Shown here piece by piece: positions 9,549 through 36,180 of a DNA stretch of 64,000 nucleotides; the stretch's first letter is position 1; each line of letters opens with the position of its first letter. The notes under the pieces are model-generated. The model made no database searches. It had not been told where the DNA came from and worked only from the letters and a program-made list of their open reading frames with translations. Where the stretch lies: assembly GCF_009725205.1 (NCBI RefSeq), contig NZ_WNZY01000008.1:1-64000 (forward strand), read 5' to 3'. The translations under genes were made by a program, and so were the position numbers. This stretch comes from Paenibacillus timonensis (GTDB lineage Bacteria > Bacillota > Bacilli > Paenibacillales > Paenibacillaceae).

Positions 9549-12041
9549 ATGCACCATCTCAGCAAAAACGAACCTAAACCCGCCCGTCCCTGGACCCTCT
9601 TTGTCATCCACCATTCCCACACGGATATCGGCTATACGGAGCGTCAGGAGAGAATCGAACAGTACCATGCCGATTTTATCCGCCAAGCCCTGAAGATTAC
9701 GGAAGCCGCCCACCGCGGGGAACGCCCGGAGTGGAAATCCTTCCGATGGACATGCGAAACGTTCTGGGCCGTGGAAAGATTTCTGGAGAGCGCTTCGGCC
9801 GAGGAGAAAGAAGCCTTCCAGCAGGCTGTGACCCGAGGGAATATCGAGCTGTCGGGAACTTACCTGAACATGACCGAGCTGCCCGACTTTGACCTCCTGC
9901 TTCGGAACCACAGCAAAGCCCAACAGTTCGCTAAATCGTTCGGACACCGGATCGACAGCGCCATGACGGCCGATATCAATGGATACGGGTGGGGTTATGC
10001 CGCAAGCCTGCTGCAAAACAACATCGAGCATCTATTCTCCTGTATCCACACGCATCACGGCATGTACCCGCTCGGCCGCAAGCAAACCCCGTTCTGGTGG
10101 GAAACGCCGGACGGCGACAAGTTGCTCGTCTGGAACGGAGAGCACTACATGTTCGGCAATGAGCTGGGATTCTGTCCGGACGCGCTAGGAAAATATATCA
10201 TCAAGGACGAAATCCAGCATTTCCTGATGGAGCCGGAGCCTCGTCATGACGAGATCGCATCCTTACGGATTCACCGTTATCTGTGGAATCTGGAGCAGGA
10301 GCAGTATCCCTATTCTTTCGTTCCGATCATGGTCTCCGGCCTGGGGACGGACAATGCTTCCCCGAATGCGGATATCGCGGAATGGATTGCGAAGTGGAAT
10401 GAACAACACGGCAACCGAATTACGATCAAGATGGCTACGCTTTCCGAGTTCTTCGCAACGTTGAAACAGGAAGATCTGTCTTCTCTCCCAATACATCGGG
10501 GCGATTGGCCAGACTGGTGGACCGACGGTGTTGCCTCCACGGCGATGCACACCCAAATTTACCGCGATGCCCAGCGGACGCTGCGGAAAGTGAAAAAACT
10601 CGATCCGAACCATGAAGCAGCAAGTCTCGCCGACATTGACGAAGTGTCGCAGGCGCTAACGATGTACGCCGAACATACGTGGGGATATCATTCCTCCGTA
10701 TATGAGCCTTGGCATCCGCAAGTACAGATGCTTGAAGTTCGTAAGCAGTCTTATGCGGCTGAAGCCAGCAAGTTGGCTCACCGGGCCTTGGATAAAGCGT
10801 TGATCGCTCGAAAAGGAGCTCTCCTGGCTCCCAAACGCCCGCTGCGATATGAGATCATAAATACGGAGCCCGCCAAAGCAACGCTTCTGGTGACGATTCC
10901 GCTGGATGGATGGGAAACCGTGCTGCTGCAAAAGGAGTTCCTACTAATCGATGAATCGACGGGGCAAGCCATACCGTACCAGCTGTCCTCTACGCAAGCC
11001 GTCGTCACCGAACTGACACTGTTCCCCGGCGAGTCCCGCACGCTCCATCTTCATCCGGTCGATAACGCGGGACTCTACGCCGATTCGAATAAGATCGTGA
11101 CGGCCCGGAATAACGAACCGATCCCCTGCGAAGGAATCAACGATATCTGGTCCGCCTCTTCCGCCAAGTATCCGATCCTTGTCGGAGACGACTTCCTGGA
11201 ATCCGACACGATGCGGATCGAATGGAGAATCAAGGAAGGAATCACGGCATGGATCGATAAAACCCTATCCGCCGATTTGCTGGACATGAACCGCAAGCAT
11301 GCGCCATTCACTCCGGTATACGAAGTGACTCCGGCACAGGATGAACATAGTCCTTCACAGATCTGTTCAACACGGTCACGTATGGGCCGGAACCGAAAAG
11401 GGATGAATGTTCAGCGGGACAGCGGCTGCCTGACCAAGGTGAAGGTGCTGGACAATGGGCCTTTGTACGCGCTTGTGGAGCTGGTGTATGAAGTAAAAGG
11501 ACTCAGCTATTACGCCCTACAACTTAAAATGTTCGCCAATCAGCCTCGGGTCGAAGTATCCGTCCGCTTCCATAAGGACAGCGTATGGCTCCCGGAGAAC
11601 GTTTATGTAGCCCTCCCCTTCTCTTTGGGACCGGAAGCAGAGCTTTACGTGGAGAAAGCCGGCTGTCTCGTTCGCCCATGGAAGGATCAGGTTCCCGGCT
11701 CCTGCCTGGATTACACCGCAGTACAGGAAGGTTTGTTCTGGCACTCGGCCAAAGATCAGGGAGCTCTTGCTCTCTCCATGACGGATACCCCTCTTGTCCA
11801 GTTGGGTACCCTTGAACACGAGCCGCGGAAGCTTCATACGATGCAATCCGAGGACAGCCGTCCCAGCACGTATGCTTGGATTCTGACCAACTATTGGGAA
11901 ACCAATTTCAAAGCCACGCTGGGCGGTTTCTATGAATTCCGCTATGCGCTTGAACGCCTGCATCAGGTTGATCCGCAAGAGACGGTGGGATCCCTTCACG
12001 CCTCTACCGGACAATTCACCGTTCACCGCATTCAATCGTAG
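9549..12041 (+). CDS. GH38-like alpha-mannosidase
   Basis: An 830-residue protein with no signal peptide, so it acts on imported mannosides. The N-terminal catalytic domain has the GH38 zinc-site motif FVIHHSHTDIGYT (residues 18-30) and the nucleophile region MTADINGYGWGYAA (about 138-151). A helical middle segment (YAEHTWGYHSSVYEPWH) and C-terminal beta-sandwich domains follow, as in GH38 enzymes. The family is the bacterial GH38-like branch; linkage specificity is unknown. CTAGGAGG lies 11 bp before the ATG, 15 bp after the ROK gene. Together the three genes could hydrolyse a mannoside, phosphorylate the sugar and isomerise it to fructose-6-P. Confidence 0.85.
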   Translation: MHHLSKNEPKPARPWTLFVIHHSHTDIGYTERQERIEQYHADFIRQALKITEAAHRGERPEWKSFRWTCETFWAVERFLESASAEEKEAFQQAVTRGNIELSGTYLNMTELPDFDLLLRNHSKAQQFAKSFGHRIDSAMTADINGYGWGYAASLLQNNIEHLFSCIHTHHGMYPLGRKQTPFWWETPDGDKLLVWNGEHYMFGNELGFCPDALGKYIIKDEIQHFLMEPEPRHDEIASLRIHRYLWNLEQEQYPYSFVPIMVSGLGTDNASPNADIAEWIAKWNEQHGNRITIKMATLSEFFATLKQEDLSSLPIHRGDWPDWWTDGVASTAMHTQIYRDAQRTLRKVKKLDPNHEAASLADIDEVSQALTMYAEHTWGYHSSVYEPWHPQVQMLEVRKQSYAAEASKLAHRALDKALIARKGALLAPKRPLRYEIINTEPAKATLLVTIPLDGWETVLLQKEFLLIDESTGQAIPYQLSSTQAVVTELTLFPGESRTLHLHPVDNAGLYADSNKIVTARNNEPIPCEGINDIWSASSAKYPILVGDDFLESDTMRIEWRIKEGITAWIDKTLSADLLDMNRKHAPFTPVYEVTPAQDEHSPSQICSTRSRMGRNRKGMNVQRDSGCLTKVKVLDNGPLYALVELVYEVKGLSYYALQLKMFANQPRVEVSVRFHKDSVWLPENVYVALPFSLGPEAELYVEKAGCLVRPWKDQVPGSCLDYTAVQEGLFWHSAKDQGALALSMTDTPLVQLGTLEHEPRKLHTMQSEDSRPSTYAWILTNYWETNFKATLGGFYEFRYALERLHQVDPQETVGSLHASTGQFTVHRIQS

Positions 12042-19958: not shown

Positions 19959-20157
19959 TTTTATACCTCCTTTTATTTAGGATCTGTGGCTCACCCGGGA
20001 GACGAACCGCAGATGTGTAACCGCATTATCTTCTAAATATTTCATACGCTGACAAATTAATCAATATATTACATTTATGATCATACGAAAATATGAAAAT
20101 AATTCCAATAGTTCCCAGGTCCCGTTTTTCCCAATGTACATTGTCCGCAAGTGGATT

Positions 20158-20202
20158 TTAAAGTTTTCTTTAAGTTTCATGAATAGGCTAATCTAGCATG
20201 AT
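20158..20202 (+). promoter_or_regulatory. OmpR-type direct-repeat promoter, site A
   Basis: Half-sites TTAAAGTTTTC (20158-20168) and TTTAAGTTTCA (20169-20179) form an 11-bp direct repeat. After 17 bp comes CATGAT (20197-20202). It precedes the SLH gene at 20256 by about 50 bp. The remaining 19959-20157 interval holds the transglycosylase promoter region and nothing else recognised. Confidence 0.8.
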
Positions 20203-20255
20203 AAAGTAGTAGAAGAAAAATCAATGCCATTAATCACACTTCAGGAGGGCAAACG

Positions 20256-22055
20256 ATGAGAAAAAAAGTTGTCGGATTATTGATGACTATGCTGCTTTGC
20301 TTTGTTTCCGTCATTTACTTTGCCGATAGCGCAGCAGCGGCAAAGACTTCAGCCGACTTCACGGACTTGAAGGATCTGGATGCTGCAACGAAAGCCAAGT
20401 TCGACGCGATGATCGAAACCGGCATATTCGAGGGTGTAAAAGAGGGCAATTTCGGACTCAATGATAAGATGAACCGGGCACAATTCGCCAAGGTTGCGGC
20501 GTTGATTTTCAATTTGGATGTGGATAAAGACTTAAAGTCATCTTCATTCTCCGACGTCAAAGCCGATGACCCTGCCAATGGTTACGCATTGCCTTATATC
20601 GAAGCAGTGAAAGCCGCGGGCATTACGGACGGATATGGGGAGGGCAGCTACAATCCGGCGGGTGAAGTAACCAAGGAGCAGCTAGCCACGTTTCTTATTC
20701 GCGGGCTGGGAATGGATGCGGATGCCAAGGCAACACCGGGCGTAAGTGATACGACGGTATCTGACTGGGCAAAAGGGTATGTCGCCTTAGCGTTGGAAAA
20801 AAAATTGTTGGAAAACGGAGCGGACGGGACGTTCGGCGGGACTTCCGTCGCTCTTCGATCTCAGCTCGTTATAGCCTCATACCAAGCAGATCAACAGTAC
20901 GTCGAAGTGAAAAAGAAGGAAGAGGAAGAACAGAAGAAAAAAGAAGAAGAGAAGAAGAAAGAAGAGGAAGAGAAGAACAAGGAAGAGGAACAGAAATCGC
21001 AGCCAGAGCCGTCTTCGTCTCCAGCTCCGCAGCCAGATTCGTCTTCATCTCCATCTCCTCAGCCGCCAGTACAGGCTACCGTTCAGACTCCTACGGCATC
21101 TCCTGCAGGCGGCACCGTGACTTCGGGAACGCAAGTTGCCTTGACTTCGGCGACCGTATCTGCGGCGGTGTATTATACGACGGATGGAAGTCAACCGACA
21201 ACGTCCAGCACGCTGTACACAGGACCGATCACCATAACGAACAATACAACGATTAAAGCCATCGCCGTAAAGACTGGATCGACGAATAGCTCGGTGGCTA
21301 GATTTGATTATACGGTCACGGTCACGATGCCCATTGTTCTACCCGAATCCGAATCGATTACACCTATGATCGTAGGAGCTTCCTATAGCGGCAGCGTAGC
21401 GAAGCTGTCTGGAGGAACGGGAGCCATTACATATGCAGTAACAAGTGGCGCACTGCCTGCGGGGCTGACTTTGAATCCAAGTACAGGTGCAATTACCGGA
21501 ACCCCAAGCGTGAGCGGTGCGTATGATTTTACGATTAGCGCGACAGATTCGGCAACGCCGCTGGCAACCGCAACCCTGCAATATACCGGTAATGTCACGC
21601 CTGCACTATCCAAAACGCCACTACAATTGATCAATGAAGCAGCGGAATCCGGGGATTGGACCGGGGTTGATGAGTCGACGTTTGCCGATGCAGGTATTAC
21701 GGGGGTCACATCTGTGAACCTCTACAGCGTCCAATACTACTTGGACCCTGCTGTAACAACACATTTACCACTTCCAAGAACATTGGCTGACATTCAAGCG
21801 ATTGTTAACGAGACGATTAAAGAAATGATGGTAACTGCAATCTATGATTATTTGAATCCCCTCGGTGGAGGATCTCGCCCAACCGTAGAATTATTCGCTA
21901 GCGCCGGCATCACCGGAGTGGATGCTTCAAATCTGGATGCAATCTTAGATGAACTTAGTTTGGCTTATCAGGAGTCCAGAACCAATCCTATGGGAACGCC
22001 TATGTCTACGAAACAAGATATTCAAGACGTTGTGGACCTATTCCTAGCAATATAA
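20256..22055 (+). CDS. S-layer-homology surface protein with Ig-like domains
   Basis: A 599-residue exported surface protein. After a signal peptide (residues 1-28) come three SLH motifs (about 34-80, 90-145, 150-205), which anchor it to pyruvylated cell-wall polymer. Then comes a Lys/Glu-rich coiled segment (about 215-247), a Pro/Ser linker, a chitobiase C-terminal-like beta domain (AAVYYTTDGSQPTTSSTLY, about 280-350) and a He_PIG-type Ig domain (YAVTSGALPAGLTLNPSTG). The C-terminus has two copies of a short motif, FADAGITGVTSVNL and FASAGITGVDASNL. AGGAGGG precedes the ATG and direct-repeat site A lies just upstream, so it is a likely target of the nearby response regulator. Confidence 0.9.
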   Translation: MRKKVVGLLMTMLLCFVSVIYFADSAAAAKTSADFTDLKDLDAATKAKFDAMIETGIFEGVKEGNFGLNDKMNRAQFAKVAALIFNLDVDKDLKSSSFSDVKADDPANGYALPYIEAVKAAGITDGYGEGSYNPAGEVTKEQLATFLIRGLGMDADAKATPGVSDTTVSDWAKGYVALALEKKLLENGADGTFGGTSVALRSQLVIASYQADQQYVEVKKKEEEEQKKKEEEKKKEEEEKNKEEEQKSQPEPSSSPAPQPDSSSSPSPQPPVQATVQTPTASPAGGTVTSGTQVALTSATVSAAVYYTTDGSQPTTSSTLYTGPITITNNTTIKAIAVKTGSTNSSVARFDYTVTVTMPIVLPESESITPMIVGASYSGSVAKLSGGTGAITYAVTSGALPAGLTLNPSTGAITGTPSVSGAYDFTISATDSATPLATATLQYTGNVTPALSKTPLQLINEAAESGDWTGVDESTFADAGITGVTSVNLYSVQYYLDPAVTTHLPLPRTLADIQAIVNETIKEMMVTAIYDYLNPLGGGSRPTVELFASAGITGVDASNLDAILDELSLAYQESRTNPMGTPMSTKQDIQDVVDLFLAI

Positions 22056-22101
22056 GGATGAAGCAGAGCGTAATCATAGCAAGGAAATAATATACCCTAG
22101 A

Positions 22102-22141
22102 AAAATAGCGGCGTAAGGGAGATCATCCCTACGCCGCTTTT
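22102..22141. terminator. Bidirectional terminator between convergent SLH and response-regulator genes
   Basis: AGCGGCGTAAGGGA pairs with TCCCTACGCCGCT (22107-22137), with A-runs to the left and TTTTA to the right, serving both converging transcripts. A diverged copy of the same hairpin occurs at 26771-26801. Confidence 0.88.
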
Positions 22142-22170
22142 ACTTACCTATCTTATCGCTAGGTTCGCTC

Positions 22171-22863
22171 TTACGTCCCGCCTCTAGCAACCAGCATATA
22201 TCCGGTCCCCCGAACCGTAACAATTCGCTCCGCATGAGCAGGGTCAATCTCAATTTTTTTGCGTAAATTGCTGATGTGTACAGCGACCGTTCTCGTATCC
22301 TCCAGACTCTCCGTTCCCCAGACGAGCTGAAACAACGCATCGACACTGACGGCACGATTCACGTTTTGTGCCATAAAGGACAGCAGACTGAACTCTTTTT
22401 TCGATAAAAAGATGGTCTCACTCCCCATGATGACGGACTGTGCATAGAAGTCGAGCGTCAATCCCGGCAACTCCAGTAGTTGCTCCTTTCTACCCGTCGA
22501 CACTCTGCGAAGATGAGCCTTGATCTTGGCCATGAGGACTCCAGGACTGAACGGTTTGGTCACATAATCGTCGCCGCCATCGGATAGTGCACTGATTTTC
22601 ACCTCGTCTTCTTCATGACTGCTCAGAAACACAATCGGCGCATTGGTGTAACCCCGTACGTTCCTGCACCAATCAATGCCGTTTTCATTAGCCAGCAGTA
22701 CATCCAGCACAATCAAATCTGGTTCGAACGACGTAAGCAGCATCCTAGCTTCTGCCCCGTTATGACAGTAGGTTGATATGAAGCCTTCTCGCTCGCAATA
22801 GGCCTGAACAATCTCGCAGATATGGGGGTCATCATCGACGATCATAATTTTGTACGTGTCCAT
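22171..22863 (-). CDS. OmpR/PhoB-family response regulator
   Basis: A 230-residue DNA-binding response regulator. The receiver domain (1-120) has the acidic pair in IMIVDDDPHI, the phospho-acceptor Asp in LIVLDVLL, the Ser switch in IVFLSSHEED and the conserved Lys in YVTKPFSPG. The C-terminal winged helix (130-228) shows FLSKKEFSLLSFM, VWGTESLEDTRTVAVHISNLRKKIE and RGTGYML. The start is set at 22863 by the D-D-D receiver N-terminus and by AAGGTG upstream; the open frame further up is vestigial histidine-kinase sequence. Direct-repeat site B lies about 95 bp upstream, implying autoregulation. Its cognate kinase is most likely the 7TMR-DISM kinase at 27551. Confidence 0.95.
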   Translation of the reverse strand: MDTYKIMIVDDDPHICEIVQAYCEREGFISTYCHNGAEARMLLTSFEPDLIVLDVLLANENGIDWCRNVRGYTNAPIVFLSSHEEDEVKISALSDGGDDYVTKPFSPGVLMAKIKAHLRRVSTGRKEQLLELPGLTLDFYAQSVIMGSETIFLSKKEFSLLSFMAQNVNRAVSVDALFQLVWGTESLEDTRTVAVHISNLRKKIEIDPAHAERIVTVRGTGYMLVARGGT

Positions 22864-22870
22864 CCCGTCG

Positions 22871-22930
22871 TCACCTTCCCTCTTCTCGAATGCAAGGGAG
22901 CAATAGAAACAGCATCCCGGTAATCTCTGC
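22871..22930 (-). pseudogene. Vestigial histidine-kinase C-terminus upstream of the response regulator
   Basis: In the frame that ends at a TGA 7 bp before the regulator's ATG, the last codons read LPCIREEGR-stop, preceded by TGMLFLL. The intact kinase at 27551 ends SLPCIQEDRR-stop, preceded by TGSIFYV. Nucleotide identity continues through the spacer GACGACGGG into the regulator start. This is the residue of a kinase gene once translationally coupled to this regulator. Confidence 0.8.
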
Positions 22931-22956
22931 TTGGTATCTGGAGTCAAACCTATCTT

Positions 22957-23001
22957 ATCATGGTAGGCCAACCCATTTGTGAAATATAAAGAAAACTTTA
23001 A
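22957..23001 (-). promoter_or_regulatory. OmpR-type direct-repeat promoter, site B
   Basis: On the minus strand TTAAAGTTTTC (23001-22991) and TTTATATTTCA (22990-22980), then 17 bp, then CATGAT (22962-22957). It would transcribe the response-regulator gene. Confidence 0.8.
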
Positions 23002-23045
23002 GCCTGCGCTAAAAATGTTCGCCTCTAGGCACGCAAGTAACAAAA

Positions 23046-23067
23046 TAGAGGGGCTTGCCGCCCCTCT
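23046..23067 (-). terminator. Terminator of the fibronectin-III/SLH gene
   Basis: AGAGGGG and CCCCTCT form a 7-bp GC-rich stem with a 7-nt loop, followed by ATTTTG on the minus strand. Confidence 0.75.
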
Positions 23068-23088
23068 TTACGATTTTAGCCTTCATTT

Positions 23089-25572
23089 CTAGTTGATAAA
23101 CTGTAAGGTTTGAAGCATCCGCTTCAGCATCACCACAGCTTCTGCGCGGCTTGCATTCTCTTTAGGCGAGAAGGTGGTAGCCGTTCTGCCGTTAATCACG
23201 CCTGCATCTACAGATTGAGCGATGGCATCTTTAGCCCAACTGCTGACGAGTGGACTGTCAGTAAATACGGGCAGGACCTTTGCATCGGCAGCTGGCTGTT
23301 GGCCTGCGAAGCTCATAGCATGAGCAATCATCACCGCCATTTCCTCACGGGTAATATTGGCGTTTGGTTTAAAGGTGCCATCTTCAAAACCATCAACAAA
23401 TCCTGCCTTGGCTGCTGCATTGACCGCTCCTGCGAACCAATCTGAAGGTTTCACATCCGGGAATTTAGAAGTGTTGTCTTCCGAGATCCCCATTACACGT
23501 ACTAAGAGCGATGCAAATTCAGCGCGGGTAATTTGACTTTCCGGTGCAAAACGATCATCCGATACTCCTTCAACCACCAATTTGGATGCGAGCAATTCTA
23601 CATCTGCTTTGGCCCAGTGTCCGCTCAAATCGTCGAAGGTTTTGGTATATTCAATAACGGCGTAAATACTGTTGCCATTACGCTTAAGCGTCGCTACAGT
23701 TTTCCCGTTATTCGTTTCAAAGGTAGCCGGAACGAACGAAAATGCACCCGTACCTGGATTGTATAGGACACCCGTTGCATTGTTTGAAGTTGGGGCTATA
23801 TGGATTGTTCTGGTTACATAGGTGCTTCCGAAATCACTTATCGATGTTGATTGGCCAGTTGTTGGTGATTCTACTGTTACATTAAAGTCCACCGGATCAG
23901 AAATCGGTTGTAGTCCAGATTGTTTCGCTGCCCTTTCAATTTCCGCAGCGGTCGCACCGGTAACTTTATCAATGGTAATATTGATATTAAGGTCTTCCGC
24001 TTCTGCTCCCATATTCTTCGCGATAGCCGGAATATCGAGAACTTCTGCAGGAAGATCGTAAGTCACGCTATCAGATTGTACAGAAATCACAGCGGATGGA
24101 ACTTGGGCTTGGATACCGGCAACCACTGTAGCGTTAAGCTGAAAATTCGTTGACTCCGTGTTACCAGGTACTTGAATCACAACTTTCGGCGTGCCTGAAG
24201 CTGATTTCATCGCATCCATCGCTTTTTGCAAATCAACCGGATCAACGGTGATCTTCGAAACGGATTTACCGTCTGCGGTCTGCTCTATTGTAGAGGTAAC
24301 CTTTAATATAACCGTACTGTTATTGTCATCAGTTCGCTTGGTTGAACCGTCTTCTACTCCTGGTGGTTTCGGGATTAGGACCGGACTGTTATTTTCACCG
24401 GATGGATTGGATGAATCGTCTTTTGATCCTGGCTGTGTGGGTCCAACAACGGTCGCAGCCGGCCTCGCGCTCACTTCGTTGGAATTGGCGCTTTCCAATC
24501 CTAGATTCACCGCATTGACTACATAGTAGTAGGTCGTTCCGTTGGCTGCTGTTGTATCTGTGTAGGTCGTTGCTGCTATATTGGCTGCTATTGTAGTGTA
24601 AGAACCACCTAACGTTGTGCTGCGCTTCACGTTATAGGACCCCGCACCCGTTACTGAGTTCCATGCAAGACTCACTTTTGCGTCACCCGCTGTTGCCGTC
24701 AAGCCTGTTGGTGCGGCAGGTGTCGCTGGAGCAGTGGTAAACGTATAGGTATATTCACTTGAAGATTCTATCGAGTTACTAGCAATCAATGAGAAGGTAT
24801 AGCTTGTATTCGGGGATAGCCCTGTAAGCCCATAAGTAACAGCAGTCACACTCTGCTCAAAATCCTCACCGTCCGATAAGTGGTATTCCGTGGCAGTAGG
24901 AATTTCATTCCACACTAATGTTGCAGTCGTAGCTGTTACAGCCTCTGCTCTCAAGTTCACGACCGAAGCATCCGGCCAAGAACTTCCGGTTGTAAATTCG
25001 ATTTCAGCCGCAGGCGAATTCTGGAGGAGATTGGATGCAACCACTTCAACGTTATAGGTAGTATTCGCTGTTAAATCATTCATCAAATAAGGACTGCTCT
25101 CTGCTCTTCCTGCATAAACGCCATCGACAGAAATATAATATTCTATTGCATATGGATGTCCTACCCAATGGATTTCTGCACTATTCGTTGTTACATTCAA
25201 GACCCTTAGATTAGTTGGAGGCGCTATAATTAAGGGTTCCGTGGTAAACTCATACTCTTCTAATTGGAAGGTCCCACCCTCCGCATCCTTGTAAAATAGA
25301 ATCGCTGTTTGTGCCAGGTTAGGGTTCAAACCTGTCACATCATGACGGAACTTGTTTGGCGTAAAGTCAAAGAGTGCCGTCCCGTTAATTTGTAATGAAT
25401 AACTTACTGCCCCATCAATGGGGTCCCATTCTAAAGTAGCTGTCGTATCCGTTATATGAATTGCTTCAAACCTGGGATCCTCACCCGTGGAGGCTGCGAC
25501 ATTTATATCACCTGACGAAAAAAACATACTAAACATCGTGAAAATGATAAGACTAGAAAATAATCTTTTCAT
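23089..25572 (-). CDS. Fibronectin type III / SLH cell-surface protein
   Basis: An 827-residue exported protein. After a signal peptide (MKRLFSSLIIFTMFSMFF) come four fibronectin-III-like domains in the first 370 residues (each with a W or L core such as TATLEWDPIDGA, AEIHWVGHP, ATLVWNEIP, VSLAWNSVTGA). A Pro/Ser/Asn linker and a middle domain of unknown type follow, and three C-terminal SLH motifs close the chain (FDDLSGHWAKADV, FPDVKPSDWFAGA, FTDSPLVSSWAKD). It should be wall-bound through the SLH domains and display the Fn3 array. The start is 25572: the -10 box at 25607-25612 lies downstream of the longer frame's start, ruling that start out. GGGAGA precedes the ATG. Confidence 0.92.
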   Translation of the reverse strand: MKRLFSSLIIFTMFSMFFSSGDINVAASTGEDPRFEAIHITDTTATLEWDPIDGAVSYSLQINGTALFDFTPNKFRHDVTGLNPNLAQTAILFYKDAEGGTFQLEEYEFTTEPLIIAPPTNLRVLNVTTNSAEIHWVGHPYAIEYYISVDGVYAGRAESSPYLMNDLTANTTYNVEVVASNLLQNSPAAEIEFTTGSSWPDASVVNLRAEAVTATTATLVWNEIPTATEYHLSDGEDFEQSVTAVTYGLTGLSPNTSYTFSLIASNSIESSSEYTYTFTTAPATPAAPTGLTATAGDAKVSLAWNSVTGAGSYNVKRSTTLGGSYTTIAANIAATTYTDTTAANGTTYYYVVNAVNLGLESANSNEVSARPAATVVGPTQPGSKDDSSNPSGENNSPVLIPKPPGVEDGSTKRTDDNNSTVILKVTSTIEQTADGKSVSKITVDPVDLQKAMDAMKSASGTPKVVIQVPGNTESTNFQLNATVVAGIQAQVPSAVISVQSDSVTYDLPAEVLDIPAIAKNMGAEAEDLNINITIDKVTGATAAEIERAAKQSGLQPISDPVDFNVTVESPTTGQSTSISDFGSTYVTRTIHIAPTSNNATGVLYNPGTGAFSFVPATFETNNGKTVATLKRNGNSIYAVIEYTKTFDDLSGHWAKADVELLASKLVVEGVSDDRFAPESQITRAEFASLLVRVMGISEDNTSKFPDVKPSDWFAGAVNAAAKAGFVDGFEDGTFKPNANITREEMAVMIAHAMSFAGQQPAADAKVLPVFTDSPLVSSWAKDAIAQSVDAGVINGRTATTFSPKENASRAEAVVMLKRMLQTLQFIN

Positions 25573-25606
25573 GAAAATTCTCCCAACAATTATTTTCCTA
25601 TATCTT

Positions 25607-25651
25607 AGCATAGTAGAATTGCCCATTTAGGAAACCTAAAGAAAACTTTAT
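25607..25651 (-). promoter_or_regulatory. OmpR-type direct-repeat promoter, site C
   Basis: On the minus strand ATAAAGTTTTC (25651-25641) and TTTAGGTTTCC (25640-25630), then 17 bp, then TATGCT (25612-25607), about 35 bp before the Fn3/SLH start. Confidence 0.8.
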
Positions 25652-25696
25652 GTTTGCTCTTGCAAGGTGCTTTGGCAACCAAGTTCAATGAACCGT

Positions 25697-26668
25697 TCAA
25701 GACTTGGAGTCGAGGAACTCATTCACATATTTGCTCATTTCCTTATACTGCGTCCAATGTAAATAGTGCTCTCCTTCTAGAACTACGAGTTGATTCATAT
25801 TTACATGTTGCAATTGGGTTTGATAGAAACTGATTTTTGATTTGCCAAATACATTGTCTTCCTTAGGAGTAAAGATCATGACAGGCAGATCCGACGGTAA
25901 TGTCATATTCTTGGTTTTATCCACGTTATTCTTTAACTCGTTCATTTCGGCAACTACATTTTTGTTGTAGGTTTTCCAGGCAGAGATCGCCTTTGTTATT
26001 CTGAGGTTTTCTTCTGTATAGGTTCCCTTCTCTGCATGCGGCAGAACTTCATTGGGTTGGAAGTATACCATGAATCTTGCAATACCCGATGGCGCCAGAT
26101 AGCTCATATAGTTAGGCATCGTAGGAAAAGCAGATTCACCGAAATACTCCATCATTTGAGGTAAGGTAGAATCTATGCCTATGATAGCTTTCACCTCATC
26201 AGGATACCGATTGGCATAATACATACTATAAATTCCGGAAATGGAATGAGGCATCAAGATATAAGGGCCTTTGATGTTGGATTGTTGCAATGCAGCCCTT
26301 GTTTCCTCTACGATGTTCTCCACCGTTCGCCCCCTGTTGGTTGTCTCGCTCCATCCATATCCGAACGCCTCTACGACGACCACCTTATTTGTCTTTGACA
26401 ATTCATTCATCAAAGGCTCAAAATCCATTGCGGGTGCTGGAGTTCCAAGTCCGCTTAGTAAAACGATCGTATTTTCCCCTTCTCCTTTTGTATAAACATG
26501 CATTTGCTTACCCTCTACTTCAACGAATTCCCCTCTTGCCGGATATTTTTGTTGTTCATACTTCGTCATCACAAGATGGATCATGAACCAAACCACACAT
26601 ACGGTTACGATAGCGAAAAGAATATTCCTTACTACTTTCCAAAATTTAAACCTCTTTCTGTTTTTCAT
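25697..26668 (-). CDS. Membrane-anchored alpha/beta hydrolase
   Basis: A 323-residue alpha/beta-fold hydrolase. One transmembrane segment (about residues 12-33, VVRNILFAIVTVCVVWFMIHLV) anchors it with the enzyme outside. The fold shows the oxyanion strand TIVLLSGLGTPAPAMDF, the nucleophile elbow LMPHSISGIY (Ser as nucleophile), an acidic residue in MIFTPKEDNVFG and the His in LEGEHYLHW. It resembles proline-iminopeptidase/lipase-type hydrolases, but the substrate is unknown. The start at 26668 is favoured because GGGAGAGG lies just before it, inside the first codons of a longer frame. It lies between two direct-repeat-controlled surface genes but has no such repeat of its own. Confidence 0.85.
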   Translation of the reverse strand: MKNRKRFKFWKVVRNILFAIVTVCVVWFMIHLVMTKYEQQKYPARGEFVEVEGKQMHVYTKGEGENTIVLLSGLGTPAPAMDFEPLMNELSKTNKVVVVEAFGYGWSETTNRGRTVENIVEETRAALQQSNIKGPYILMPHSISGIYSMYYANRYPDEVKAIIGIDSTLPQMMEYFGESAFPTMPNYMSYLAPSGIARFMVYFQPNEVLPHAEKGTYTEENLRITKAISAWKTYNKNVVAEMNELKNNVDKTKNMTLPSDLPVMIFTPKEDNVFGKSKISFYQTQLQHVNMNQLVVLEGEHYLHWTQYKEMSKYVNEFLDSKS

Positions 26669-26765
26669 TGGTTTAACCTCTCCCTTCATCGTTAGTTAAA
26701 TGATATCTAGTGGAACTTTCCTTTTTCTTAATCAATTCTTATAAAAAACTTACTTTTTAGGTAAT

Positions 26766-26802
26766 CAAAAAGCGACGCAAGGAAGGTATCCCTACGCCGC
26801 TA
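26766..26802 (-). terminator. Terminator of the DNRLRE-domain gene
   Basis: On the minus strand AGCGGCGTAGGGA pairs imperfectly with TTCCTTGCGTCGCT, followed by TTTTTG. It is clearly related in sequence to the terminator at 22107-22137, supporting a past duplication in this region. Confidence 0.75.
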
Positions 26803-26815
26803 TGACTCACCAACC

Positions 26816-27376
26816 CTAACTCACAAGGACAAGTTCAGGCCTTTGATTCGCATTGTTAGTCGATTTAATCGTGATTTCGCTGTGTCCATCGCCAGATGAA
26901 TTGCCTTCAAAAATGAAGGAGACATACTCATTCTGTGCACGTTTCAATTGATCCTTCACATAATCAGTAACGACAAATTCCTTCCATTTCCCAGACGCAA
27001 AATGATTTTCTTCCTCACCTGTAAGGGGGATAGTGATCGAACCATCAGGAAATGCATCCGTATCATCCGTCCAATCAACCGTATCCGTACCATATAACTT
27101 AACAGATGGCGTATTCAATGTACCCGTTACATACACCCTTAAGGTTGCTCTTCGGATCTCCTTCACCTGAGGGGGCAATTCAAATCGGAGCGCCGTTCTT
27201 GACTTTCCATGAGGCAATGATCCGATATAATTTACAGATGTATTGCCCACTTGAATTCCACCTGCATAATTTGTGCCAAAGTCATCAAGCTTATCGAAGT
27301 CGGCACGGATCGTAACTTCCTTCGCAGAAGCGTCTTTATCAGAGAAGGATAAAAGTCTAATCATCTTTATTAACAT
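26816..27376 (-). CDS. DNRLRE-domain beta-sandwich protein
   Basis: A protein of about 186 residues formed almost wholly by a DNRLRE domain, a carbohydrate-binding-like jelly roll found in large surface proteins. Marks are the start VTIRADFDKLDDFGTNYAGG, RTALRFELPPQVKEIRRATLRVYV and the end NNANQRPELVLV. No signal peptide is seen, odd for this domain, so the N-terminus may be damaged or secretion may be non-classical. The start is uncertain: ATG at 27376 is used, with a weak G-rich site; ATG at 27364 and TTG at 27409 are alternatives. The leader contains seven C residues in a row at about 27382-27391. Direct-repeat site D precedes it. Confidence 0.75.
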   Translation of the reverse strand: MLIKMIRLLSFSDKDASAKEVTIRADFDKLDDFGTNYAGGIQVGNTSVNYIGSLPHGKSRTALRFELPPQVKEIRRATLRVYVTGTLNTPSVKLYGTDTVDWTDDTDAFPDGSITIPLTGEEENHFASGKWKEFVVTDYVKDQLKRAQNEYVSFIFEGNSSGDGHSEITIKSTNNANQRPELVLVS

Positions 27377-27425
27377 ACCCGCCCCCCCGAAACCTACAAG
27401 ACTCGTCAAAGATCTCCACTATACT

Positions 27426-27470
27426 ATCACGGTAGACTTGCCGATTTGGGAAACTCAAAGAAATCTTTAA
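27426..27470 (-). promoter_or_regulatory. OmpR-type direct-repeat promoter, site D
   Basis: On the minus strand TTAAAGATTTC (27470-27460) and TTTGAGTTTCC (27459-27449), then 17 bp, then CGTGAT (27431-27426). It lies about 20 bp downstream of the vestigial response-regulator start. Confidence 0.75.
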
Positions 27471-27490
27471 GTTTGTGCTTGCATCGCACC

Positions 27491-27550
27491 TCACTCATAT
27501 GGGGGGGCATCATCGAGTATCATCATTTTTTGTACGTGTCCTTCCCGTCG
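27491..27550 (-). pseudogene. Vestigial response-regulator 5' end downstream of the kinase
   Basis: Directly after the kinase stop the sequence repeats the spacer and first codons of the regulator at 22863: GACGACGGG, then AAG in place of the start ATG, then GACACGTACAAAA. A short frame reads MMILDDAPPYE-stop where the intact regulator has IMIVDDDPHICE. Homology stops within about 60 bp, so this copy is dead. Confidence 0.8.
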
Positions 27551-29698
27551 TCACCTTCTGTCTTCTTGAATGCATGGAAGCGATACATAGAAGATCGACC
27601 CCGTTTCGCCGTCGCTCTCCGCTCGAACCGTCCCTCCGTGTGCTTGCACGATCTCCCTGCAAATCGCCAGCCCGAGCCCGCTTCCCTCTACTCCATTTTC
27701 CATGCCCGGTCGATCAACCCTGTAATTGCGATTGAAGATTTGCTCAAGCTGCTCTGGCGGGATACCCATTCCAGTGTCTTGCACACTAATGATTGCATAG
27801 CGGATCTCATTCACCTCTTTCACGGCTAGTGCAATACGTACCGCACCACCTCTAGAGGAGAACTTCATTGCGTTCGACACCAGATTGAACAATACCTGCT
27901 CCAGTCTTTGCGCATCCAGCTCTACAACAGAAGAGCCAGTTCCTTGGTCTTCCGCAACTCCGACATCCAGCATGAAATTAAGCCCCGCGTCACGCACAAC
28001 TAGCTCATATTGTTCATAAAACCCACGCAAGAAGTGAACGATATGGACCGGCACCATTCGGTACGAGACTTGTCCTGTCTCCAAATGCGATAAGAAGGAC
28101 AACTCCTCGATCATGCGGTTAATCCTTATCGTGTTATCCCGGATATATTTCAAGTACTGTTCATCGCGTTCCGGCTTGACCCTATCCCGCACAGCTTCGA
28201 CATACCCAAGCATGCTGGACAGCGGCAAACGCAGATCGTGCGTAATATAGGCAAGGAGCTTTTTTCTCCCTTGCTCGGATAGAAGCAACTGATCATACGA
28301 TGAGCGGAGATCATCATGAGCTACGGATAAGGCTTGTGTACGCTCCTGCACGGTCTGTTCCAAATTCATATTCATTTCGGTCAACTTGTTGTTCGCGTCC
28401 TGTAATTGACGTGCAATCCTTTCTTCGTTAGTTGCCGCCCTCGTAAATCTGGAAGAAAGCAGAAACATCTGCGCGATCGTAAACACCAACAAACCCAGCG
28501 GAGAAGTGTTCCCGATGGGTGACCCTTCATTGAAATATAGAAAATCATTGATGACCGTAACCAAAGCAACCATCGACACCAATAGGAAAAATAGCGCTCC
28601 CTCCATACGCCGTACCGCCGATTGAACCAGCCCAACCATCAGATACACCATGTGCAGAACAACGACCACACCGATTACCGTTAATAATTTGGTATAAAAA
28701 AGTGCAGGGGATACCGCAACAACTAGACAGAGTGCACCCGTTACGATTTCCGAGCCAAGACGAAACCATCGCGACACGGAATTCGGAAAAATGCTATTCG
28801 AGTACTTGGTGATAATATACCCCCCGCTGCAAAGGGTCAGGTACTCTATCTTGAATTGAATTTCCCATGGAAACGCCGGCCACAATTGGGTAAGCAAGTG
28901 TTCGCCAACCAGCAAGGATCGGATGCCAAACAACAAGGTGAACAACCCAAAATACAAGGGAGCCCTGTCTTTGCGTCGTAGTACGAACAGTAGCAGGTGA
29001 TAGATGCCAATCAACAGCAGGCTTGCGGTCACGAACATTTCACCCGCGATGTTCAGATGGGTCTTGACCGTTAGCACATCACTGCCGCCCAACTCGATAA
29101 ACTTGGTGATGCCGCCTCGTTTATGATGAAAGTTGGATACTTGCATCACCAGTTCCACCGTGTCATTTTCGGGCTGGAAGAACACCAGCCGCGTTGCGAG
29201 TTGCGGTGTCACACTGCGCTTGTCCTGACCAACGACACCGACTTCGGCCAGCAGCTCGCCATTCACCCACAATTTATACGCATGAAAAATGGTCGGCAGC
29301 CGCAGAGCAAGCCGCTCGTTTCGATCCTGCTCGCTAAGCTGGATGACCAGCCGATAGGTTGCAAACCCTGTACCGTTCAGCTGCTGGTCATCTAGCCGAT
29401 AGCCCAGCCAGGAGCTTGGGATACGGATCCAGCGGTCATGACTTCCGTCCCTGGCTAAGCGATTCTGTATGTCCTCAGGCGACAGCAACTCTTGCCAATA
29501 GAACTCCCACTCCCCATTTAACTTTTGCGGATTCTCACTGATGCGAACCTGCGTTAAATCCAGAATGCCTTCTTCACTTTGAAATTTTGGGGAATCCGGC
29601 GCAGGAATGACGGCATAACTTGCCACCAAACCAACAACAATGGCAGCAGCTACATAAAGCAAAATCTTTCGTGAACCGAATCGAAGAATACCCCTCAT
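27551..29698 (-). CDS. 7TMR-DISM sensor histidine kinase
   Basis: A 715-residue membrane kinase. A signal anchor (about 12-32) is followed by an extracellular 7TMR-DISM ligand domain (about 55-200: LNGEWEFYWQELL, FATYRLVIQLSE, YKLWVNGELLAEVG), seven helices (about 215-430), a coiled coil (LQDANNKLTEMNMNLEQTVQERTQAL), HisKA with phospho-acceptor His in LLAYITHDLRLPLSSMLGY, and HATPase_c with the N box VLFNLVSNAMKFS, G1 VQDTGMGIP and G2 GSGLGLAICREIV. It probably senses a carbohydrate or wall-derived ligand and phosphorylates the regulator at 22171: vestiges of each gene lie beside the other. The ribosome site is weak (GGGGTCGG). Confidence 0.95.
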   Translation of the reverse strand: MRGILRFGSRKILLYVAAAIVVGLVASYAVIPAPDSPKFQSEEGILDLTQVRISENPQKLNGEWEFYWQELLSPEDIQNRLARDGSHDRWIRIPSSWLGYRLDDQQLNGTGFATYRLVIQLSEQDRNERLALRLPTIFHAYKLWVNGELLAEVGVVGQDKRSVTPQLATRLVFFQPENDTVELVMQVSNFHHKRGGITKFIELGGSDVLTVKTHLNIAGEMFVTASLLLIGIYHLLLFVLRRKDRAPLYFGLFTLLFGIRSLLVGEHLLTQLWPAFPWEIQFKIEYLTLCSGGYIITKYSNSIFPNSVSRWFRLGSEIVTGALCLVVAVSPALFYTKLLTVIGVVVVLHMVYLMVGLVQSAVRRMEGALFFLLVSMVALVTVINDFLYFNEGSPIGNTSPLGLLVFTIAQMFLLSSRFTRAATNEERIARQLQDANNKLTEMNMNLEQTVQERTQALSVAHDDLRSSYDQLLLSEQGRKKLLAYITHDLRLPLSSMLGYVEAVRDRVKPERDEQYLKYIRDNTIRINRMIEELSFLSHLETGQVSYRMVPVHIVHFLRGFYEQYELVVRDAGLNFMLDVGVAEDQGTGSSVVELDAQRLEQVLFNLVSNAMKFSSRGGAVRIALAVKEVNEIRYAIISVQDTGMGIPPEQLEQIFNRNYRVDRPGMENGVEGSGLGLAICREIVQAHGGTVRAESDGETGSIFYVSLPCIQEDRR

Positions 29699-34590: not shown

Positions 34591-35841
34591 TTAATACAGC
34601 GTATTCACGAACCACCCGTTTTCCTGTGTTGGCATAGCCATTTGCATCGATGACTGGTACATCACGAATTGCTGCATCTGGCGAGCCTTCGAGTTCAGCA
34701 AGCTGCTTGCCGGGACTTCATTGTATCTTTCCACTGCTGATGATAAACGGTCAGCTAGACCATAGTTGCCGCTAATCGCTTTCGTTGTTTGCTCGAAATT
34801 TGAGCTTAAGCTCTTCCTAAGCTGCTCTTCATCCAGTTTGATAGTACCATCACCGTTACGAAGAATACCGATTCGCTCATAGGTAGATGAGCTGACTAAC
34901 GATTCCATGCTTTTTCGGACAGACGAATTCATAACTCCACCGGCTTCTTTCAAACGATCATGCATCGAATTGTAACTCGACACCAAATCTTTAACTTGCG
35001 CGATGATTTTGCCTTCGTCCGGTTTGATTTGAATGTTCACAGCTTCTATCGATGGAGCGATTAGTGTCGCCGTAGCTTTGCCCTTTTCCAGATCAATCGT
35101 GTTCGACTGCGAGGTTTGAGTAGCGCCGCCATTCACGCTGTAGGAAGCATTCGATGCTAGTTGCGTAGCATGCTGAACGCCGGTTGTCGACATCGCGTTG
35201 CCGGTAACATCTTCAACCCTGAAAGCCTGATCTACTCCTGTCTTGTCGCTGCTTAACTCAAGCTTCTTATTGCCTGTTTTATCATCCGTTACAATATGGG
35301 CGGTTACACCCGTCTTCGCTGTATTGACCGCATCTTTCAGCTTGGTCAGTGCTTGATCGTTCGTATCGTTATCCGAGATGGTAGCCGATACTTTCGTTGT
35401 CTTGCCGCCTATCGTAATGTTGAACAGATTCATGCCCTTGCTTACAACGGAATGGTCTACTTTAGACAAAAATGTTCCACTGTTCGTTTGAGAAGTCGCG
35501 ATCGCATTCACATTAAGTTCATAAGTTTTGCTCGCAGCTCCGGCCAATGCAGTTGCGGTAACCTTCTTGCTATCCGATGATTCCGCCATCCTTGTTTGGA
35601 AAAGTGAATTTTCCTTCTGCATTAACTTTTGTGCCGATGCTTGCATATCCTGCGCAGATTTCATAAAATTCGCAATCCCGGTTGCCGCTGTCTTGATATA
35701 TTGCTCATATGATTTGCTCTTCGAAACGAACTTCGAGAATAGCGATGGGTTCGCACCCAGACTATCGGAAGCTTGGAAACTCAAAGACGTCGTTCTGCTA
35801 ACCGGATTCATCAAGTTATACGAGTTAATCGATAACGCCAT
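34591..35841 (-). CDS. Orphan FliD (flagellar cap)-like protein
   Basis: A 416-residue protein. It carries FliD-type features: the D1-like strand KTYELNVNAIATSQTNSGTF, a FlgK/FliD-like segment ITIGGKTTKVSATISDNDTNDQALTKLKDAVN, SSDKTGVDQAFRVED, and a long C-terminal helical pair. The N-terminus (ALSINSYNLMNPVSRTTSLSF) and C-terminus (ALSSAVERYNEV... MQQFVMYQSSMQMAMPTQENGW) are amphipathic, like axial flagellar proteins that self-assemble. No flagellar gene lies nearby. The start at 35841 follows GGAGGGG. Direct-repeat site E lies upstream, with a leader of about 170 nt that can fold into hairpins. It may be a surface fibre or adhesin rather than a flagellar cap. Confidence 0.78.
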   Translation of the reverse strand: MALSINSYNLMNPVSRTTSLSFQASDSLGANPSLFSKFVSKSKSYEQYIKTAATGIANFMKSAQDMQASAQKLMQKENSLFQTRMAESSDSKKVTATALAGAASKTYELNVNAIATSQTNSGTFLSKVDHSVVSKGMNLFNITIGGKTTKVSATISDNDTNDQALTKLKDAVNTAKTGVTAHIVTDDKTGNKKLELSSDKTGVDQAFRVEDVTGNAMSTTGVQHATQLASNASYSVNGGATQTSQSNTIDLEKGKATATLIAPSIEAVNIQIKPDEGKIIAQVKDLVSSYNSMHDRLKEAGGVMNSSVRKSMESLVSSSTYERIGILRNGDGTIKLDEEQLRKSLSSNFEQTTKAISGNYGLADRLSSAVERYNEVPASSLLNSKARQMQQFVMYQSSMQMAMPTQENGWFVNTLY

Positions 35842-36021
35842 CCATCTACCCCTCCATACTGTCGCAAAATATATAATGATCATCTCTGCTTCAACCTAAG
35901 TTGGCTATGGTTTCACCCCCGCAATTTACGAGGTGCGCAGCTTCTTGCCCTGCACGCATATACCATCCCCTTAACAGCCAGCGATTCTTCGTCAGAAGCC
36001 TGTAAATATTACCAGTAATAT

Positions 36022-36066
36022 ATCATAATAGATTGTTCCTTATATGGAACATAAAGAAAACTTTAA
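36022..36066 (-). promoter_or_regulatory. OmpR-type direct-repeat promoter, site E
   Basis: On the minus strand TTAAAGTTTTC (36066-36056) and TTTATGTTCCA (36055-36045), then 17 bp, then TATGAT (36027-36022). It would drive the FliD-like gene. Confidence 0.8.
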
Positions 36067-36180
36067 GTTCGAATTTATAAGTAAGGGCAATAACGAAACA
36101 AGTACGATTCCAGTAAACGAAGCCAGTTCGGCCGACTTTACTGTTATTATCTAAACCTAACACTTATTCTAAGACTCACA

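Follow-up and report, generated by a model that had tools for sequence, protein, structure and literature searches.

The histidine kinase (HK) and the response regulator (RR) encoded 4.7 kb apart in the genome of Paenibacillus timonensis are probably what is left of an operon that was duplicated as a block, lost one partner from each copy and was rewired towards autoregulation of the remaining regulator, the last step presuming that the regulator binds a promoter-like element (P box) ahead of its own gene. As far as sequence can tell, the duplication and the reciprocal loss are shown by the remains that each partner still carries of the other. The window, as we call the whole stretch of DNA analysed (64,000 nucleotides, contig NZ_WNZY01000008.1), holds three genes between the two, encoding a CBM96-domain protein, an alpha/beta hydrolase and an SLH-fn3 surface protein, an earlier, sequence-only reading having likewise counted three genes in between. 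On the minus strand the order is kinase, RR fossil, box, CBM96 gene, terminator, hydrolase gene, box, SLH-fn3 gene, box, kinase-tail fossil, regulator and terminator, and the SLH1 gene (20256–22055, plus strand) converges on the regulator gene. The features are as follows.

27551–29698, minus strand: intact histidine kinase, 715 aa (ORF and domain search)
27475–27550, minus strand: fossil of a first regulator (RR1), its first ~20 codons (start AAG, frameshifted) joined to its last ~6 codons
27421–27474, minus strand: P box 3 (repeats and extended -10), upstream of the CBM96 gene
26816–27409, minus strand: CBM96-domain protein, 197 aa, TTG start assumed (domain search)
26767–26811, minus strand: terminator T', second copy of the terminator 3' of the regulator
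25697–26689, minus strand: alpha/beta hydrolase, 330 aa, without a P box upstream (ORF and domain search)
25656–25683, minus strand: remnant of the 3' end of a third regulator (LVA..., ~9 codons), abutting P box 2
25602–25655, minus strand: P box 2, promoter-like, ahead of the SLH-fn3 surface gene
23089–25572, minus strand: surface protein SLH2, 827 aa, fn3 and three SLH domains (domain search)
22952–23005, minus strand: P box 1, 88 nt ahead of the regulator start
22864–22930, minus strand: fossil of the last ~18–20 codons of a second kinase (E 2e-18)
22171–22863, minus strand: response regulator RR2 (Response_reg and Trans_reg_C), 230 aa (ORF and domain search)
22146–22169, minus strand: probable P-box remnant with its middle deleted, 3' of RR2 (by eye against P box 1)
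22085–22141, no strand assigned: terminator T, flanked by RR2 and the convergent SLH1 gene
20256–22055, plus strand: SLH1 surface protein, 599 aa, with SLH, CHB_HEX_C_1 and He_PIG domains (domain search)
20154–20207, plus strand: P box 4, upstream of SLH1
36017–36070, minus strand: P box 5, upstream of the FliD-like gene
34591–35883, minus strand: FliD-like (flagellar hook-associated protein 2) gene, candidate target

The kinase combines a sugar-binding-like N-terminus with 7TMR-DISM_7TM (PF07695, 1e-23), HisKA (PF00512, 3e-14) and HATPase_c (PF02518, 1e-26) domains, and the regulator a Response_reg receiver (PF00072, 9e-24) with a winged-helix Trans_reg_C domain (PF00486, 7e-24). With dN/dS values of 0.13–0.22 against relatives for the kinase and of 0.10–0.16 for the regulator, both proteins are under purifying selection. 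Just a kinase tail lies directly upstream of the regulator, the nearest kinase being the intact one 4.7 kb off at 27551–29698. Since this kinase is present in the same genome, the pair has been split and not orphaned.

Ahead of the regulator ATG (22861–22863) the minus strand encodes LLPCIREEGR followed by a stop, and the C-terminus of the kinase reads SLPCIQEDRR-stop. The sequence 3' of the kinase stop, GACGACGGGAAGGACACGTACAAAAAATGATGATACTCGATGATG, matches the regulator start, with AAG in place of ATG and 2 nt inserted. Both peptide ends (LPCIREEGR-stop and LPCIQEDRR-stop) and the AAG codon had been pointed out before, exactly as they stand. The similarity extends over the direct repeats 22848–22916/27528–27596 (83%) and 22824–22851/27502–27529 (86%). 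An alignment of the two junctions had been proposed as a check; for 22820–22930 against 27480–27620 it gave 107 columns with a score of 59, against a mean of 9.4 and a maximum of 17 in 2000 dinucleotide shuffles, which rules out chance similarity. With either junction as a query against the entire own genome, only these two places matched at such strength (E 4e-34 and 2e-18).

Inspection of the kinase side revealed more than a regulator start. After ~20 codons the sequence jumps to a regulator 3' end and then enters a P box. This 3' end (GAGGTGCGATGCAAGCAC) is 17/18 identical to GAGGTGCGTTGCAAGCAC of the related genome G023, and against locus L031 the fossil gives two BLAST pieces (E 3e-19 and 2e-14) that jump from regulator start to regulator end. 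The fusion indicates that a whole regulator once stood 3' of the kinase and has since lost ~640 nt. The sequence-only reading overlooked this 3' end, and also that the repeat family at 22952, 25602 and 27421 (with further members at 20154 and 36017) is a promoter-like box. Of the two origins it had offered, duplication of the block with reciprocal loss of partners stands, whereas mere copying of the junction falls, as the kinase-side fossil holds both ends of a regulator around a deletion, followed by the box. Another regulator 3' end (GGTTGCCAAAGCACCTTGCAAGAGC) precedes P box 2. None of 300 shuffles was as good, and together with its box it gave E 3.5e-10 in a whole-genome search; at least three regulator 3' ends, not two, were once present at the locus. 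A relic of this kind was sought at all five boxes and was significant at boxes 2 and 3 and not at 1, 4 or 5.

The end of the kinase-tail fossil is also the Shine-Dalgarno sequence of the functional regulator (GGGAAGGTGA), and its retention would be explained by the position of this Shine-Dalgarno within the last kinase codons. A full P box is absent 3' of the regulator in the own genome; the sequence found there, GCGAAC...CTA..GATAAGATAGGT, likened to P box 1 by eye and with no separate statistic, is probably a P box minus its middle. The terminators at 22107 and 26771 had been called related, and they are duplicates: the sequence at 22085–22165 has one further copy in the 5.1-Mb genome, at 26767–26811 (80% over 46 nt, E 3.5e-4). 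A common genomic repeat is ruled out by there being two places only. Hairpins related to terminator T were found 3' of the regulator in L033 and 3' of the RR1 fossil in L114 and L090.

Kinase and regulator genes are adjacent and essentially complete in four genomes of the genus (G023, G009, G032 and G007), the kinase of G032 ending a few codons early, and their contiguity is therefore ancestral. In G032 and G007 the pair adjoins an SLH1 homologue, as it does in the window. A wider search yielded 86 regulator copies above 60% identity from Paenibacillus, Cohnella, Saccharibacillus and a few other genera. Of these, 68 directly follow this kinase (including two genomes reached twice, L065 = L034 and L104 = L035) and 18 are detached, some of them on short or edge contigs. 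The kinase-linked majority makes HK and RR partners by descent, as the earlier reading had proposed from the vestiges, and this genomic association (68/86) points to the two window genes as a cognate pair. A different intact partner for either gene was looked for in the relatives and was not found.

A quick tree requires ~13 changes for the detached state, though just four are forced by well supported branches, and on this count the detached regulators were rejected as one old clade; the box-fronted state requires eight. Regulators with 85–87% identity from records labelled Lederbergia, Bacillus, Peribacillus and Sporosarcina (L052, L057, L058, L085) nest among Paenibacillus copies in this tree, possibly as a result of horizontal transfer or mislabelled contigs. 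A second regulator copy in G023 (L032, 8219–8917) is located behind groEL, with a P box on either side and then a 1444-aa SLH protein, in a genome that also has the intact HK-RR operon.

The P box, 54 bp long (consensus GAACTTAAAGTTTTCTTTAAGTTTCATAAATGGGCTAATCTACCATGATAAAAT), comprises a pair of 11-bp repeats and an extended -10 (TGnTAnnnT); its core TTAAAG/TTTCTTT and the TGnTA are invariant or nearly so. We found 102 copies across 63 loci. In nine loci the distance from the final regulator codon in the alignment to the start of the box is 10–17 nt, and the box includes the stop codon; in L031, L060 and similar loci the regulator stop TAA lies inside the first repeat. Among the proteins scanned behind P boxes, 21 of 29 carry SLH domains. 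In relatives the box follows the regulator with SLH sequence next (G023 and elsewhere), which makes the surface genes behind P boxes part of the duplicated unit and not later inserts; the earlier dating of a surface-gene insertion after the duplication finds no support in that form.

All five P boxes of the own genome are within the window, ahead of the SLH1, regulator, SLH-fn3, CBM96 and FliD-like genes, and a genome-wide repeat is thereby ruled out. Across 41 genomes of the genus the box was found in 5/5 with this regulator and in 3/36 without it (hypergeometric 7e-5, calculated by hand and ignoring relatedness between genomes), an association that is in part due to the shared locus, box and regulator having been duplicated together. 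Furthermore, a box is present within 200 nt upstream of eight of the 18 detached regulators (the window, L032, L047, L050, L059, L060, L090 and L114) but upstream of the kinase in only one of 61 complete HK-RR operons (Fisher 1.3e-5, relatedness ignored).

These distributions bear on the strongest competing explanation, which accepts duplication and loss and takes the P box for a surface-gene promoter that is constitutive or under some other control, with the regulator simply carried along. The three genus genomes that have the box without this regulator are in its favour, and the physical linkage of box and regulator 3' end would let both travel together; the operator role is, as regards binding, putative. 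This explanation fits less well with 11-bp repeats that lie just above the -35 position and suit an OmpR-type activator, and with own-genome boxes that are confined to the neighbourhood of the regulator and yet front genes that differ in their history (SLH1, encoded on the opposite strand, and the FliD-like gene). Detached regulators, moreover, acquire the box and operonic ones rarely do. We consider this explanation rather unlikely.

A distance of 14 kb separates P box 5 and its FliD-like gene from the regulator. Cohnella sp. AR92, too, has a FliD_N-like ORF behind a box (L067:3057–3428), and the boxes before FliD-like genes suggest a flagellum-related target of the system. G006 (L041), one of the three box-bearing genomes without the regulator, represents the system in decay: its kinase is truncated after residue ~504, a close regulator is missing from the genome, and a P box lies ~1.1 kb upstream. 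A different conserved block, ATTATCTTTGTAATCTGTTTCTTTGGCATGCTTTATCTCGAGCGC, stands ahead of many boxes (L050, L053, L054, L058, L063, L092, L106, L112), and often no long ORF was called behind these. In L033 (9770–9852) a head-to-head pair of P boxes overlaps (minus 9809–9770, plus 9801–9852), which looks like a single operator shared by divergent promoters. Two small families without a confident Pfam match, beginning MVIxxxSSGAQLG... and VNVKSVQPxSDYFKAMQQ... (L047:10782–11165 and L114:12964–13347; L109:10870–11298 and similar), recur in Cohnella and Paenibacillus immediately after P boxes and are candidate regulon members of an unassigned kind.

The split has parallels in relatives. A kinase, a fossil proximal regulator and a retained distal regulator were found, with breakpoints unlike those of the window, in at least four loci (L046, L048, L114 and L090). 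Cohnella terricola (L047) has the order kinase-RR-box-RR-box, second units with a shortened kinase are present in Paenibacillus sp. 1_12 (L054, L063) and strain CAVE-418 (L088), and in P. oceani (L064) a kinase tail stands ahead of a second regulator. These stages, together with the other breakpoints, show that what happened in the window has happened repeatedly.

Extra units that are whole or almost so, as in L047, L054, L063, L064 and L088, also speak against an origin of the similarities by recurrent gene conversion, or by short stretches of the HK-RR junction being copied from locus to locus, in place of block duplication, as does the succession of regulator start, regulator end, box and terminator in the order of a whole unit. 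Five sites common to both window junctions differ from all four relatives; they would fit a duplication later than the split from G023 and G009, but recent copying would give the same. Conversion appears very unlikely to us. The insertion of a foreign three-gene block into an intact operon, which would agree with the ancestral contiguity and with ~100 bp repeated at both ends of the block, is highly improbable and was rejected: no transposase or insertion-element ORF was seen in 22900–27500, the kinase-side copy is no plain repeat but an internally deleted gene with the regulator start joined to the regulator end and P box, an additional regulator 3' relic lies inside the block, the terminators are duplicated, and 100 bp is far above the length of usual target duplications.

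On the reading of block duplication followed by loss and rewiring, the ancestral unit consisted of kinase and regulator, followed in many relatives by a P box holding the regulator stop in its first repeat and then by a surface gene, and closed in several relatives by the related hairpin terminator. In the window lineage this unit was duplicated in place at least twice; the proximal regulator lost its middle, one kinase was reduced to its tail and a third regulator to its 3' end, and one kinase, one distant regulator, surface genes and fossils are left. The kinase, through its sugar-binding-like domain and 7TM sensor, would phosphorylate the distant regulator, which in turn may bind the repeats TTAAAGTTTTC-TTTAAGTTTCA just above the would-be -35 and activate the extended -10. 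Having been set behind P box 1 by the duplication, the regulator would have exchanged co-transcription with the kinase for positive feedback, and the outcome would be a local regulon of five promoters, mostly of cell-surface genes. Binding, phosphotransfer and feedback are suggested by the genomic confinement, the co-occurrence and the anatomy of the promoter.

A more general speculation, which we put forward tentatively and consider possible though not probable, is that with an operator on the regulator's own stop codon each tandem duplication automatically places a second regulator under the first. Through this architecture, at least four to five Paenibacillus/Cohnella lineages may each have lost the copy linked to the kinase and kept the one that activates itself, the freed regulator ends seeding new surface-gene promoters. 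If true, it would constitute a structural ratchet from a plain operon to a feedback circuit with a growing local regulon. As a rule, trees are used to reconstruct how a regulator parts from its kinase operon; in the present case the successive states, from an intact through a doubled and a half-lost unit to an end state with both fossils, are legible in the sequence and repeated in several genera. The comparison also provides this sensor system of the surface layer with a concrete putative operator and a local regulon of small size.

Our literature search found no paper describing the P box or this sensor system of surface-layer genes, and a study of collective motility (PMC5072692) contains no regulator matching that of the window. 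SlhA of P. alvei (PMC3776848) has SLH anchoring domains in common with the proteins encoded here; the excerpt of that report notes no regulator linked to SlhA, whereas a dedicated box and regulator are proposed for the present locus. The kinase shares its extracellular carbohydrate-binding-like domain and seven-helix membrane domain with 7TMR-DISM sensor kinases, and differs in being paired with a regulator of surface (SLH) genes. OmpR-family two-component systems have the same domain make-up, an ancestral operon and 11-bp direct repeats upstream of the promoter; here, by contrast, the box overlaps the regulator stop in relatives, and kinase and regulator are split by three genes, each with a fossil of the other. 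In myxobacteria, two-component system genes arise by duplication and horizontal gene transfer, and indels in part of a locus alter its organisation (PMC4603909). Orphan response regulators that arise by duplication and partner loss have taken the same route as the window regulator, but at the present locus both lost partners have left readable remains, an intact kinase persists in the vicinity and the split has recurred, with other breakpoints, in several lineages. That regulators leave their kinases after duplication is thus a known phenomenon, which is here unusually legible, recurrent and accompanied by an uncharacterised operator-like element.
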